NCBI GenBank assembly: GCA_902570425.1
Contig: CACFYB010000001.1
Span: 62,001 to 126,000, forward strand
Source of the DNA: an uncultured Pelagibacteraceae bacterium
Lineage (GTDB): Bacteria; Pseudomonadota; Alphaproteobacteria; Pelagibacterales; Pelagibacteraceae
DNA: 64,000 nucleotides
Direction: 5' to 3'
The notes beneath the pieces were generated by a model. The model was given only the letters and a program-made list of their open reading frames with translations. It made no database searches and was not told the DNA's origin. The position numbers were made by a program, and so were the translations under genes. Shown piece after piece: positions 29,905-34,893 of the stretch (position 1 is the first letter of the stretch; each line of letters begins with the position of its first letter).

Positions 29905-30814
29905 TTTGAGTAAAAGCTTCAGCAAATTTTTCAGCATCGAATAATTGTAAATCATCTTCTTTTTCACCTAGGCCTAATGCAATAATAGGGAGTTTATATT
30001 TTTTTGCTAAAGCTAAAAGAATACCACCTTTTGCTGTTCCATCTAATTTTGTCATTATTACACCTGTTATGGGAATAATTTTATTAAATTCTTCAACTTG
30101 ATTGATTACATTTTGACCTGAAGTTGCATCTAAAACTAAAATTACATTATGTGGTGCATCTGGGTCTATTTTCTTTGTTACATTAGCTATCTTTTTATAT
30201 TCCTCCATTAAATTTTTTTTATTTTGAAGTCTTCCAGCTGTATCAATCAAAACTTGGTTAAAATTATTTTTCATAGCTTCATCAACTGCTTTATAAGCAA
30301 CAGATGCTGGATCAGATCCTTGTGATGATTTAGTTATTTGAACATTCACTTTATCAGCCCAATTTTCTAATTGTTCAATTGCGGCAGCTCGAAAAGTATC
30401 TGAAGCCGCAAACATAACCTTATTTCCATTAATTTTTAAAATTTTACCAATTTTTCCAATAGTGGTTGTTTTGCCGACACCATTTACACCTGAAATTAAA
30501 GTGGCACTAAGTTTATCCTTCTTTTCAAAAAAAGAATTATTTTCCAAAGGTTTCATTAAAGAAACAATGTAATCTTTTAAAATCAAATTTATTTCAGTCG
30601 ATAAATTTTTTTTCGGATCAATTTTTTTAGATGAAATAATTTCTTTAATTTCAGATGCTGCTTCTACACCCACATCTGACTTAATCAAAAATTCCTCTAT
30701 TTTGTCTAAGTTTTCATCATCTATCTCTTTTTTTATTATAATTTCCTTTAAACCTGACGAAAACGCAGAAGCACTTTTTTTAAAACCAATTTTAAATTTA
30801 TCAAAAATTCCCAT
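29897..30814 (-). CDS. ftsY: Signal recognition particle receptor FtsY
   Basis: SGVNGVGKTTTIGKI, DTFRAAAIEQL, DTAGRLQNKKNLMEE, TKLDGTAKGG. Confidence 0.97.
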   Translation of the reverse strand: MGIFDKFKIGFKKSASAFSSGLKEIIIKKEIDDENLDKIEEFLIKSDVGVEAASEIKEIISSKKIDPKKNLSTEINLILKDYIVSLMKPLENNSFFEKKDKLSATLISGVNGVGKTTTIGKIGKILKINGNKVMFAASDTFRAAAIEQLENWADKVNVQITKSSQGSDPASVAYKAVDEAMKNNFNQVLIDTAGRLQNKKNLMEEYKKIANVTKKIDPDAPHNVILVLDATSGQNVINQVEEFNKIIPITGVIMTKLDGTAKGGILLALAKKYKLPIIALGLGEKEDDLQLFDAEKFAEAFTQIN

Positions 30815-31638
30815 TAGATTTTTAATATTATCTCTTTAATATCAGACACTGGTCCAGTCATATACACATTACCATTACCTATATCAAATGTAATATCTAA
30901 AGATCCTTCTTTGAAATGAACTTTACAAATTTTCTCAGTTAATTGATTTAGATATCCTGCAACAACAGTCGCGCACGCAGCAGTTCCACAAGCTTTAGTT
31001 TGGCCTGCTCCTCTCTCCCAAACATTTACTTTTATATTTTCACAATCATCCGCTACTTCTGCAAAAGTTACATTTATTCTTTCGGGAAAATAATAGTGGT
31101 TTTCAATTTTAGGACCAATCTTTTTTATATCTATTTTTTCGCAGTCATTGACAAAAAAAACAATATGTGGATTACCTACATTAACACATATTCCATCTCC
31201 ATATTCTTCTTTCATGAAATCAATCGAGACTTTTCTAGGATCTAATCCTTCTTTGATAGGGATACTTTTATCATATTTAAATTCTGGAAGACCCATATTT
31301 ATTCTTACTAATTTTTCACTTAAAATTTCCGCTTCCAAAATTTTTTTTTCGGCCTCTAATTTTATGATTTTTTGATTATTCTCTTTTGAGATTAAATAAG
31401 CTATGCATCTACTTCCATTTCCGCAAGCACCAACTTCTATTCCATCAGGATTATAAATTTTAATTGGAAAAACATTTTCAACTTTTTTTTCAATAAATAT
31501 TATTTGATCAAATCCAACATTATTCCTATCACCTATATTTATTATTTGTTCTTTAGTAAGATTTATTTCACTTTTTCTTCTATCAATAATAACAAAGTTG
31601 TTTCCTAGGCCATCCATTTTAAAAGCTTTTATGTTCAT
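30814..31638 (-). CDS. dapF: Diaminopimelate epimerase
   Basis: KMDGLGNNFVIID, ACGNGSRC, GQTKACGTAACA. Confidence 0.96.
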   Translation of the reverse strand: MNIKAFKMDGLGNNFVIIDRRKSEINLTKEQIINIGDRNNVGFDQIIFIEKKVENVFPIKIYNPDGIEVGACGNGSRCIAYLISKENNQKIIKLEAEKKILEAEILSEKLVRINMGLPEFKYDKSIPIKEGLDPRKVSIDFMKEEYGDGICVNVGNPHIVFFVNDCEKIDIKKIGPKIENHYYFPERINVTFAEVADDCENIKVNVWERGAGQTKACGTAACATVVAGYLNQLTEKICKVHFKEGSLDITFDIGNGNVYMTGPVSDIKEIILKI

Positions 31639-31698
31639 ATATACTTATTTAACTTATTTATTGACTTTTTGAACCTCTATTATAGTTTGTGCCTGTTT

Positions 31699-31779
31699 CC
31701 GCAAAAACGTTAAATTTGCGGTGTCTTTGGAAACAAAGAGATCGACACTAGTCAGCGAGGGTTCGCCCACTAGTGCGAT
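31699..31779 (+). ncRNA. Structured RNA leader of ffh (three consecutive hairpins)
   Basis: P1 CCGCAAA/TTTGCGG (31699-31721); P2 TCTTTG-GAAA-CAAAGA (31724-31739); P3 ATCG-A-CACTAGT-cagcga-GGG-TTCG-CCC-ACTAGTG-CGAT (31741-31779). Confidence 0.8.
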
Positions 31780-31799
31780 TACTAATGCGTGTGATAAAT

Positions 31800-33158
31800 A
31801 TGTTTGAAAATTTGACAAATAAATTTGAGGAAGTTTTTTCCTCCCTGAAAAAAGCACCATCACTTGACGAAAATCAAGTTGATGAGGGGTTGAGAGGTAT
31901 AAGGCAAGCTTTATTAGAGGCAGATGTATCTCTTGATGTAGCAAAAGATTTTATTGAAAAAGTTAAACCAAAAGCTCTAGGTCAAGAAATAATTAGATCT
32001 ACATCCCCCGGAGATATGGTCGTTAAGATTGTTTATGATGAATTGGTTAATTTGTTAGGTGAAAAAAATAATGATGTAAATTTGAATGCAGTACCACCAG
32101 TACCTATGATGCTAGTTGGATTACAAGGATCTGGCAAAACTACTACAACTGCAAAATTAGCGAAATATTTAGAAAATATAAAAAAAAAGAAAGTAATGAT
32201 GGTAAGTTTAGATATCTATAGACCAGCAGCTCAAGAACAATTGAGATCTTTAGGTGAACAAAATAATATTTTAACTCTACCAATCATAGATGGACAACAA
32301 CCAACTGATATTTGTCAAAGAGCAATAAGTGCTGCAAATTTAAATGGAGCCGAAATAATACTATTTGATACAGCCGGAAGAACTCAAATTGACTTGCAAA
32401 TGATGAGTGAGATTAAGCAAATTGAAAATACTATTAAGCCAGCAGAAACCTTACTTGTTGCAGATTCTCTTACAGGGCAAGTTGCAGCTTCCGTCGCAAA
32501 AGAATTTAAAAATACAGTTAATCTTTCAGGAATAATTCTAACAAGAGCAGATGGTGATGCAAGAGGTGGAGCTGCTGTTAGTATGAAATTTGTTTCACAA
32601 GTTCCAATAAAATTTTTAGGTATTGGTGAAAAAATTGAAAATCTTGAGGCATTTCATCCAGACAGAATTGCAAATAGAATTCTTGGTATGGGAGATATTG
32701 TATCTCTTGTTGAAAAAGCAGCACAAGACTTAGGTGAAGAAAACATAAAAAAAACGGAAGAAAATTTAAGAAAAGGACAATTCTCAATGCAAGATTATTT
32801 AACTCAACTTAGACAAATGAAGAAAATGGGCGGTGTAGAGGGCATCATGTCTTTCATGCCGGGGGTTTCAAAAGTCAAGTCGCAAATGGATTCTGCTGGA
32901 ATTGATGAAAGTGTTATCACTAAAAATGAGGCTATAATTCTATCAATGACAAAAAAGGAAAGAGAGAACCCAAAAATAATTGATGGTTCAAGGAAAAAAA
33001 GAATTGCTAATGGCTCTGGAACAGATCCGGCCACTATCAATAAATTGTTAAAGCAATTTAAAATGATGTCTGAAATGATGAAAAAGATGTCAAAAGGAAA
33101 TCTGAAAGGTTTGTCTGATAAAGGTATACCTCCAGAATTATTTAATCAACTAAAATAA
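31800..33158 (+). CDS. ffh: Signal recognition particle protein Ffh
   Basis: MFENLTNKFEEVFSSLKK from ATG 31800 (track start 31773 lies in the leader); GLQGSGKTTTTAKLA, DTAGRTQ, M-domain GMGDIVSLVEKA. Confidence 0.97.
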   Translation: MFENLTNKFEEVFSSLKKAPSLDENQVDEGLRGIRQALLEADVSLDVAKDFIEKVKPKALGQEIIRSTSPGDMVVKIVYDELVNLLGEKNNDVNLNAVPPVPMMLVGLQGSGKTTTTAKLAKYLENIKKKKVMMVSLDIYRPAAQEQLRSLGEQNNILTLPIIDGQQPTDICQRAISAANLNGAEIILFDTAGRTQIDLQMMSEIKQIENTIKPAETLLVADSLTGQVAASVAKEFKNTVNLSGIILTRADGDARGGAAVSMKFVSQVPIKFLGIGEKIENLEAFHPDRIANRILGMGDIVSLVEKAAQDLGEENIKKTEENLRKGQFSMQDYLTQLRQMKKMGGVEGIMSFMPGVSKVKSQMDSAGIDESVITKNEAIILSMTKKERENPKIIDGSRKKRIANGSGTDPATINKLLKQFKMMSEMMKKMSKGNLKGLSDKGIPPELFNQLK

Positions 33159-33171
33159 AAAAGGAGAGTAA

Positions 33172-33639
33172 ATGTTAAAACTTAGATTATCAAGAGGTGG
33201 CACAAAGAAGAGACCGGTTTATAAGGTCGTAGTTGCTGACAGTCGTTTTGCAAGAGATGGAAGATTTATTGAGAAAGTAGGTTTTTTTAATCCATTATTG
33301 CCAAAAGAAAAAAAGGAGAGAATTGGATTAGAAGCCGAAAGAATTAAATATTGGTTGGGTCAAGGTGCACAACCAACAACAAGAGTTGCCAGGATTTTAG
33401 GTGAAAATGAACTGATGCCTATGCCCGCTAACGGGAATAACCCTCAAAAAGCAATTCCAAAAAAGGATAGAAAAAAAGAGAGCTCTCAAGATGCTAAAAA
33501 GGATGAAACTGCAAAATCAGATGCAGTTCCAGCAGCAGAAGCTAAAAAAGAAGAAGCTCCTAAGGCAGAAGCTAAAAAGGAAGAAGCTCCTAAGGCAGAA
33601 GCTAAAAAGGAAGAAGCTCCTAAGGAGGAAAAAAAATAA
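33172..33639 (+). CDS. rpsP: 30S ribosomal protein S16 with repetitive charged C-terminal tail
   Basis: [24 protein letters not shown]; tail ([10 protein letters not shown])n. Confidence 0.96.
33541..33630 (+). repeat. Three tandem 30-nt units in the rpsP tail
   Basis: gctaaaaaRgaagaagctcctaaggcagaa x3 (third copy ends gaggaa). Confidence 0.95.
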
Positions 33640-33653
33640 TCTAAGTTTTATTT

Positions 33654-34340
33654 ATGTTGCAAGCTCAAGTATTTACACTTTATCCAGAAATTTTTCCTGG
33701 GCCTTTAGATAAAGGTCTTTATGGCAGAGCAATGGTCAAAAAATTGTGGAGTTTGAATGTAATTAATATTAGAGATGCAGCAACAGATAAACACAAGACA
33801 GTAGATGATGCACCATATGGTGGTGGTACAGGAATGTTACTTAAACCTGACGTTTTAGCAAAATCTATCGATCAGAATATAAATAAAGGGGAAAGAATTT
33901 TTTATCTTTCACCTAAAGGTAAAAAATTTGATCAAAATCTTGCTACAGAATTGTCCAAAGAAAAGTCATTTTCTTTAATTTGTGGACATTTTGAAGGTGT
34001 TGATGAGAGGGTTTTAACTACAAGAAATATAGAGGAAATAAGTATTGGAGATTATGTGTTGTCAGGCGGTGAAACAGCTGCACTTGTGGTTCTTGATAGT
34101 GTGCTAAGACTTTTGCCTGGAGTTTTAGGGAATGAAAAATCAGCCTCTGAGGAAACTTTTGAAAATGGTCTTTTGGAATATCCTCAATATACAAAACCAC
34201 AGATTTGGGAGGAAAAATCGGTACCAGATGTGTTATTATCAGGGGATCACGCTAAAATTAAAGACTGGCGTTTATCTCAATCTGAGGCTATAACACGCGA
34301 CCGAAGACCAGATTTGTGGCAAAAATATAAGAAAAACTGA
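33654..34340 (+). CDS. trmD: tRNA (guanine-N1)-methyltransferase
   Basis: [50 protein letters not shown]. Confidence 0.97.
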
Positions 34341-34356
34341 ATTGTTAAATAGTAAT

Positions 34357-34893
34357 ATGAAAACAATAGAAGAAATAAATCAACAAAATGTAAAGAAAAT
34401 TCTTTCTGAAAAGAAAATTCCAGAGTTTTTTCCAGGAGATGTAGTTAAAGTTGGTGTGAGAATTACAGAAGGTAAAAAAGAAAGAATTCAATATTTCGAA
34501 GGTGTTTGTATCGCTAAAAAAAGTAGAGATTTAAACTCTTCATTTACTGTAAGAAAAATTTCTTTTGGAGAAGGTGTTGAAAGAACGTTTCCATTATTTG
34601 GTACAGTTATTGATTCTATTAAAGTTATTCGTTCAGGAAAAGTAAGAAGAGCAAAATTATATTATTTAAGGGACAGAACAGGTAAATCAGCGAGAATTGC
34701 TGAAAAAATTAGGAAAAAAATTGGTATCGATGTTGATGTAAAACCCGAGACAGTAACAGAGGAAAATTTAGCTCCAGTTACTTCAGAAAAAACAAATACA
34801 ATAGAGGAAGCTCCTAAAGCAGAAGCTAAAAAAGATGAAGCTCCTAAAGCAGAAGCTGAAAAGAAAACAGAAAGCTCACCAGAAAAAAAATAA
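34357..34893 (+). CDS. rplS: 50S ribosomal protein L19 with repetitive charged C-terminal tail
   Basis: [45 protein letters not shown]; more likely start ATG 34357 than 34342. Confidence 0.96.
34807..34866 (+). repeat. Two imperfect 30-nt units in the rplS tail, same unit as in rpsP
   Basis: gaagctcctaaagcagaagctaaaaaagat / gaagctcctaaagcagaagctgaaaagaaa. Confidence 0.9.

Follow-up and report, generated by a model that had tools for sequence, protein, structure and literature searches.

The structured RNA preceding ffh in an uncultured Pelagibacteraceae bacterium is, as judged by comparative sequence analysis, very probably the leader of the rpsP operon, a role for which SRP would not be needed. 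Ribosomal protein S16 (bS16, the product of rpsP) may be the ligand that this leader binds, a tentative assignment whose chance is put a little below even. The ffh-leader RNA does exist and had been catalogued before, so its existence is itself no news. What is apparently new is that the element is present in most of the sampled Alphaproteobacteria and that bacteria which have lost Ffh and FtsY still keep it, with compensatory changes in its stems. An RNA that took its name from ffh, and to which no function had been assigned, is thereby turned into a concrete and testable candidate for the control of the rpsP-trmD operon.

The window, that is, the whole stretch of 64,000 nucleotides that was analysed, gave a single match when it was scanned with Rfam as had been proposed: RF01793 "ffh" at 31731-31783 on the + strand, with 54.1 bits against a gathering cut-off of 35. 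The match lies in the 161-nt gap between dapF and ffh, which carries a structured segment, and the window has the bulged hairpin, the two conserved C residues (C31753.C31768) and the downstream ffh ATG (at 31800) of that family. The original prediction had referred to an ffh-associated motif in Pelagibacter, and correctly so: Meyer et al. (2009, PMC2704228) described in 'Ca. Pelagibacter ubique' a conserved bulged hairpin of unknown function preceding ffh, which is now RF01793. In a literature search, the accession RF01793 turned up only in a Mesorhizobium sRNA list and the term 'ffh motif' in the 2009 paper alone. The sequence also bears out the three hairpin-forming segments that had been pointed out in the gap, the end of the lower stem 20 nt upstream of the ffh ATG and an ffh start without a visible Shine-Dalgarno sequence. 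The features of the leader and of its neighbours are as follows.

30814-31638, - strand: dapF, the divergent upstream neighbour, an ORF kept beside the element in the SRP-less family.
31661-31666, + strand: putative -35-like box, TTGACT, of which TTGAC is invariant in 31 distinct Pelagibacterales leaders.
31683-31688, + strand: putative -10-like box, TAGTTT, after a 16-nt spacer; TA (31683-31684) is invariant in the alignment.
31699-31721, + strand: hairpin 1, CCGCAAA...TTTGCGG, with a 3' arm CGG common to hairpin 2; seen in Pelagibacterales and several other families.
31719-31744, + strand: hairpin 2, extended form, CGGU.G.UCUUUG-GAAA-CAAAGA.G.AUCG, the RNAalifold consensus of 31 Pelagibacterales leaders.
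31724-31739, + strand: hairpin 2, short form, TCTTTG-GAAA-CAAAGA in the window sequence.
31731-31783, + strand: match to the RF01793 covariance model (54.1 bits, gathering 35).
31746-31775, + strand: hairpin 3, the RF01793 core, with 7 bp, C31753.C31768, A31754.C31767, 4 bp GCGA/UCGC and the loop GGGU.
31776-31789, + strand: 3' single-stranded tail with the class consensus CNNUUNNNGUU[GU]G, obtained by counting alignment columns in 119 hairpins and 141 loci; the window's CGATTACTAATGCG fits it only partly.
31800-33158, + strand: ffh, the SRP54 GTPase (PF00448, PF02978, PF02881).
33172-33639, + strand: rpsP, ribosomal protein S16 (PF00886), the proposed ligand and regulated product.
33654-34340, + strand: trmD, an ORF with gene order conserved in related loci.
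34342-34893, + strand: rplS, ribosomal protein L19 (PF01245).

Hairpin 3 is composed of the ACTAGT stem and, above an A.C wobble and a conserved C.C mismatch, of the apical part GCGA-GGGU-UCGC. Folded alone it has z = -4.2, none of 200 shuffles being equally good, and the whole leader is less exceptional in folding (z = -1.8). An alignment of 120 distinct sequences was made up of class-wide motif loci, the order of one SRP-less genome and 80 named genomes. In it, 99.9% of the cells are paired under the hairpin 3 model (7 bp / C.C / A.C / 4 bp, with GCGA-UCGC closing the GGGU loop), a figure somewhat inflated because some rows were chosen by means of a pairing filter, which does not, however, explain the counts of double changes; the GGG-UUCG-CCC tetraloop helix of the original prediction is paired in only 52.8% of the cells and is without real covariation. 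On this ground the UUCG tetraloop helix was rejected; RNA folding also favours the GGGU-loop fold. Covariation, which had been named as a check on the structure, was found: changes on both sides occur in 10 of the 11 hairpin 3 pairs, and the covariation score including the N.N' pair is 0.497, against 0.174 for shuffled and at most 0.090 for slid alignments. In addition, the stem cells of the aligned hairpins hold 50 G.U and one A.C, which indicates that the + strand is the functional RNA strand. The alignment shows the element as a + strand RNA structure evidently under strong pairing selection.

The C31753.C31768 position is C.C in 139 of 141 loci. At the adjoining position 71 of 119 hairpins have A.C, as the window does, and others have C-G, G.U, G-C or U-A; part of the SRP-less family has A.A there. 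The tail is conserved at a fixed spacing from hairpin 3, with U at +4 (92%), UU at +10/+11 (about 88%) and mostly G at +12 or +13. From these columns the core of the element is seen to consist of hairpin 3, with its almost invariant C.C mismatch, and of the tail at fixed spacing. Two further helices did not hold. In a lower ATCG/CGAT stem, formerly drawn beneath hairpin 3, three of the four pairs each fail in 5-13 of the 31 Pelagibacterales, and about half of the class-wide cells pair; it was therefore rejected as a conserved lower part of hairpin 3, and the consensus fold has its AUCG paired instead with the CGGU of the extended hairpin 2. A closing helix between the 5' end of the leader and the tail is tempting in single SAR11 sequences and was likewise rejected, as cognate against swapped pairs were barely above chance in 141 loci.

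Hairpin 1 and the extended hairpin 2 would be mutually exclusive helices, and three-way covariation across Pelagibacterales suggests a toggle between them. The pair closing the extended hairpin 2 is C-G in 22 and U-A in nine of the 31 distinct Pelagibacterales leaders (RNAalifold), and the Y of this pair is also paired in hairpin 1 (CCRC/GYGG). The triples around the base shared by hairpins 1 and 2 (31701, 31719 and 31744 in the window) comprise, over 55 loci, 39 G-C-G, 10 A-U-A and six others, a count in which the hairpin 1 pairing with the shared base was required, so that only the hairpin 2 coupling is independent. No intermediate triple between G-C-G and A-U-A was seen in Pelagibacterales, and one locus (L152), otherwise nearly identical to the window, has all three changes. 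Of 141 loci, 29 have an overlapping hairpin 1 that is better than shuffles (p<0.05), where seven would be expected. Because the sequences are related, the independent events behind the triple covariation are few (at least two), and the toggle is not universal. At its boldest, the reading would make the SAR11 leader a bistable switch, in which CGG(U) pairs either in hairpin 1 or at the foot of hairpin 2 and bound S16 sets the balance, and would make the 'ffh motif' an ancient class-wide S16 sensor whose link with SRP is incidental; this is a rather doubtful proposal.

The promoter-like pair noticed earlier just upstream stands in part. Its TTGAC is invariant in the 31 Pelagibacterales leaders, whereas the second conserved box, in our own reading of the alignment, is TAGTTT with a 16-nt spacer and not TATAGT (31681-31686) with 14 nt. 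The putative transcription start would lie at about 31694-31697. An intrinsic terminator, that is, a GC-rich hairpin directly followed by a T tract, was not found in the window, and a hairpin with a T tract (at least 6 T in 8) occurs at 16 of 141 loci; being absent from the window and not conserved across the 141 loci, it was rejected. These signals bear on the main rival to the S16 leader, namely a protein-free role in pausing or stability, in which hairpin 3 and the tail would act as an RNA polymerase pause, a weak attenuator or a stabilising 5' hairpin, whatever gene follows. The U-rich stretch and U-G step at a fixed 11-13 nt past the stem, the 16 loci with a T tract and the variable distance to the start codon are all consistent with it. 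It is, however, unlikely, because the window has no terminator signal, most loci have no T tract and a plain stability hairpin or terminator needs no near-invariant C.C mismatch.

Of 385 alphaproteobacterial genomes, a refined covariance model built from the alignment of the element matched 236 and the RF01793 model 106; the element is present in 175 of 197 genomes of the Pelagibacterales. In 399 Pseudomonadota genomes the refined model matched 107, every one of them alphaproteobacterial, and no element was found outside the Alphaproteobacteria. The gene context offers an independent check, as all 40 of the 40 matches unique to the refined model precede ffh-rpsP. The element heads ffh-rpsP-(rimM)-trmD-rplS and lies directly upstream of that operon in every locus read, and this position supports a cis-regulatory role. 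It also speaks against an independent trans-acting small RNA, transcribed from a separate promoter in the space between dapF and the operon, since a mobile sRNA gene would not be expected to keep the same operon directly downstream, and no terminator follows hairpin 3. Such an sRNA is quite improbable, although Rfam types RF01793 as sRNA, Meyer et al. (PMC2704228) detected a transcript of the motif in metatranscriptomes and MH_s5 of Mesorhizobium huakuii, for which an RNA-seq range is given, is annotated as RF01793.

For 121 loci the downstream sequence extends to 4.5 kb or more; the element is followed first by ffh in 120 of them and S16 comes after it in 119, while in G252 S16 lies at about 5.06 kb. 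The distance from stem to start codon ranges from 18 to 535 nt across loci, and direct masking of the ribosome site can therefore not apply to all of them. In several loci of Mesorhizobium and Xanthobacter the element is present, yet neither TrmD nor L19 was found in the 10 kb after S16; the one product encoded downstream almost everywhere is thus S16. It is therefore improbable that one of the other operon products, L19, TrmD or RimM, binds the leader, even though these genes are usually downstream and L19 leaders are known in Firmicutes and Flavobacteria (PMC7247131); in the case of RimM, the window has no room for it between rpsP and trmD.

Several features of the operon itself may be recorded here. 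No reading frame for RimM fits at 33639-33654 of the window, and in a sister family (f174) the rpsP-trmD gap is ~730 nt, big enough for RimM. Two Rhodobacteraceae-like loci, L062 and L067 (in G331 and G252, respectively), have tandem co-directional GNAT-like acetyltransferase genes inserted between ffh and rpsP, three in G331 and about six in G252, one of which was confirmed as PF13302. The tails of S16 (33172-33639) and L19 (34342-34893) are similar K/E/A/P repeats. Many Pelagibacterales contigs end ~1.7-1.9 kb past the motif, that is, in the rpsP tail, for which the repeat is probably responsible.

Family f50 (18 genomes of three genera; loci L162-L175 and L176-L180) has small genomes of 0.9-1.4 Mb, some of which are marine single-cell records. 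Ffh and FtsY were not found in any of the 18 genomes, the positive control being supplied by a separate search, and in the four members tested for the SRP54 domain and SRP RNA neither was found, while the positive controls G252 and G153 matched. The element is kept in 14 of the 18 genomes, in all 14 directly ahead of rpsP, and dapF lies upstream wherever the contig extends that far; five named records of the same type (L176-L180, deposited under the labels OCS116, PS1 clade or Hyphomicrobiales) have the same dapF-element-rpsP junction. The ffh gene appears to have been cleanly deleted between dapF and rpsP, and the common junction suggests a single ancestral deletion, in which case the compensatory changes in the hairpin would postdate the loss of ffh. 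The nine distinct hairpins of the family retain 11 of 11 pairs and the C.C mismatch and include the double changes A-U/G-C and C-G/U-A. This comparison shows that the element has outlasted Ffh and FtsY and, by all appearances, goes on acquiring compensatory changes in their absence. The loss of SRP in a family which includes marine single-cell genomes is surprising in itself.

This family bears directly on the autoregulation put forward in the original prediction, according to which Ffh would bind the leader as an SRP-RNA mimic and repress its own gene. The comparisons give no support to such mimicry, with Ffh as the sensor, as the function for which the element is conserved, and this reading is highly improbable. 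As described above, ffh nearly always heads the operon, and the element and SRP RNA have a GUCAG strand in common, both of which would suit a mimic. However, a mimic should depend on Ffh in the genome, whereas the element and its pairing selection persist in the family without Ffh or FtsY. Moreover, the likeness to helix 8 is limited to that one strand: the GGAA/AGCAG strand is missing, the symmetric and asymmetric loops of helix 8 were not found in the element, and the supposed A.C/C.C step covaries as an ordinary pair beside a C.C mismatch. Meyer et al. (PMC2704228) had already denied any resemblance of the ffh motif to 4.5S RNA. Because the element is kept before rpsP in the SRP-less family, it is probably a control element of a ribosomal-protein operon rather than an SRP-RNA mimic sensed by Ffh. 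It was also rejected as the SRP RNA itself: RF00169 has no match in the 64-kb window, and the same genome has a separate SRP-RNA candidate (RF00169, 33.6 bits). This candidate (G000:C3:134321-134411, L002) precedes a dnaX-like reading frame, and its score is under the curated cut-off of 40, so automatic annotation would miss it.

The preferred reading, a ribosomal-protein leader, agrees with two features by which such leaders are recognised: a covarying structure lies on the coding strand upstream of a ribosomal-protein operon, and it stays with the ribosomal-protein gene when genes for other products are lost. S16 binds 16S rRNA after other proteins and is in this respect less typical of autoregulators. 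When E. coli 16S and 23S rRNA were searched with a simple pattern for the C.C-flanked helix, the matches were scattered and looked like chance, and no mimicry of an S16 site was found by this pattern. On the other side, Eckert and Weinberg (2020, PMC7247131) proposed an S16 leader (rpsP-rimM) in Flavobacteria and remarked that the gene for the ligand frequently does not come first; a 2024 review (PMC10931766) names rpsP/trmD as a rare ribosomal-protein operon for which, it states, no regulatory information exists. S16 is favoured as the ligand because it is downstream in nearly all loci, because TrmD and L19 are not near it in some and because of the precedent in Flavobacteria. In the proposed mechanism, the element would be a cis-acting 5' leader of (ffh-)rpsP-(rimM)-trmD-rplS in Alphaproteobacteria; free S16 would bind hairpin 3 and the tail, and S16 in excess of its rRNA sites would lower the expression of the operon. 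The state of the RNA may be passed on to expression by hairpin 1 and the extended hairpin 2, as alternatives to each other, in Pelagibacterales and several further families.

Among known systems, the window element is a member of the RF01793 ffh motif, with which it agrees in sequence, structure and place ahead of ffh; compared with the motif as reported, however, its range is wider, its core comprises the C.C mismatch, the covarying N.N' pair and the 3' tail, and it is found also ahead of rpsP without ffh. The bacterial small SRP RNA (RF00169) is similar in the GUCAG strand and in an A.C step within a helix, whereas the conserved features differ. The L19 leader of Firmicutes and Flavobacteria is likewise a ribosomal-protein leader, and its gene, rplS, is part of the operon considered here, but it has no Rfam match in the window, and rplS is the last of the ribosomal-protein set. 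The Flavobacteria S16 leader (PMC7247131), likened here by description, is also structured, precedes rpsP(-rimM) and has S16 as its proposed ligand; it belongs to another phylum, and in Alphaproteobacteria ffh usually intervenes between the element and rpsP.
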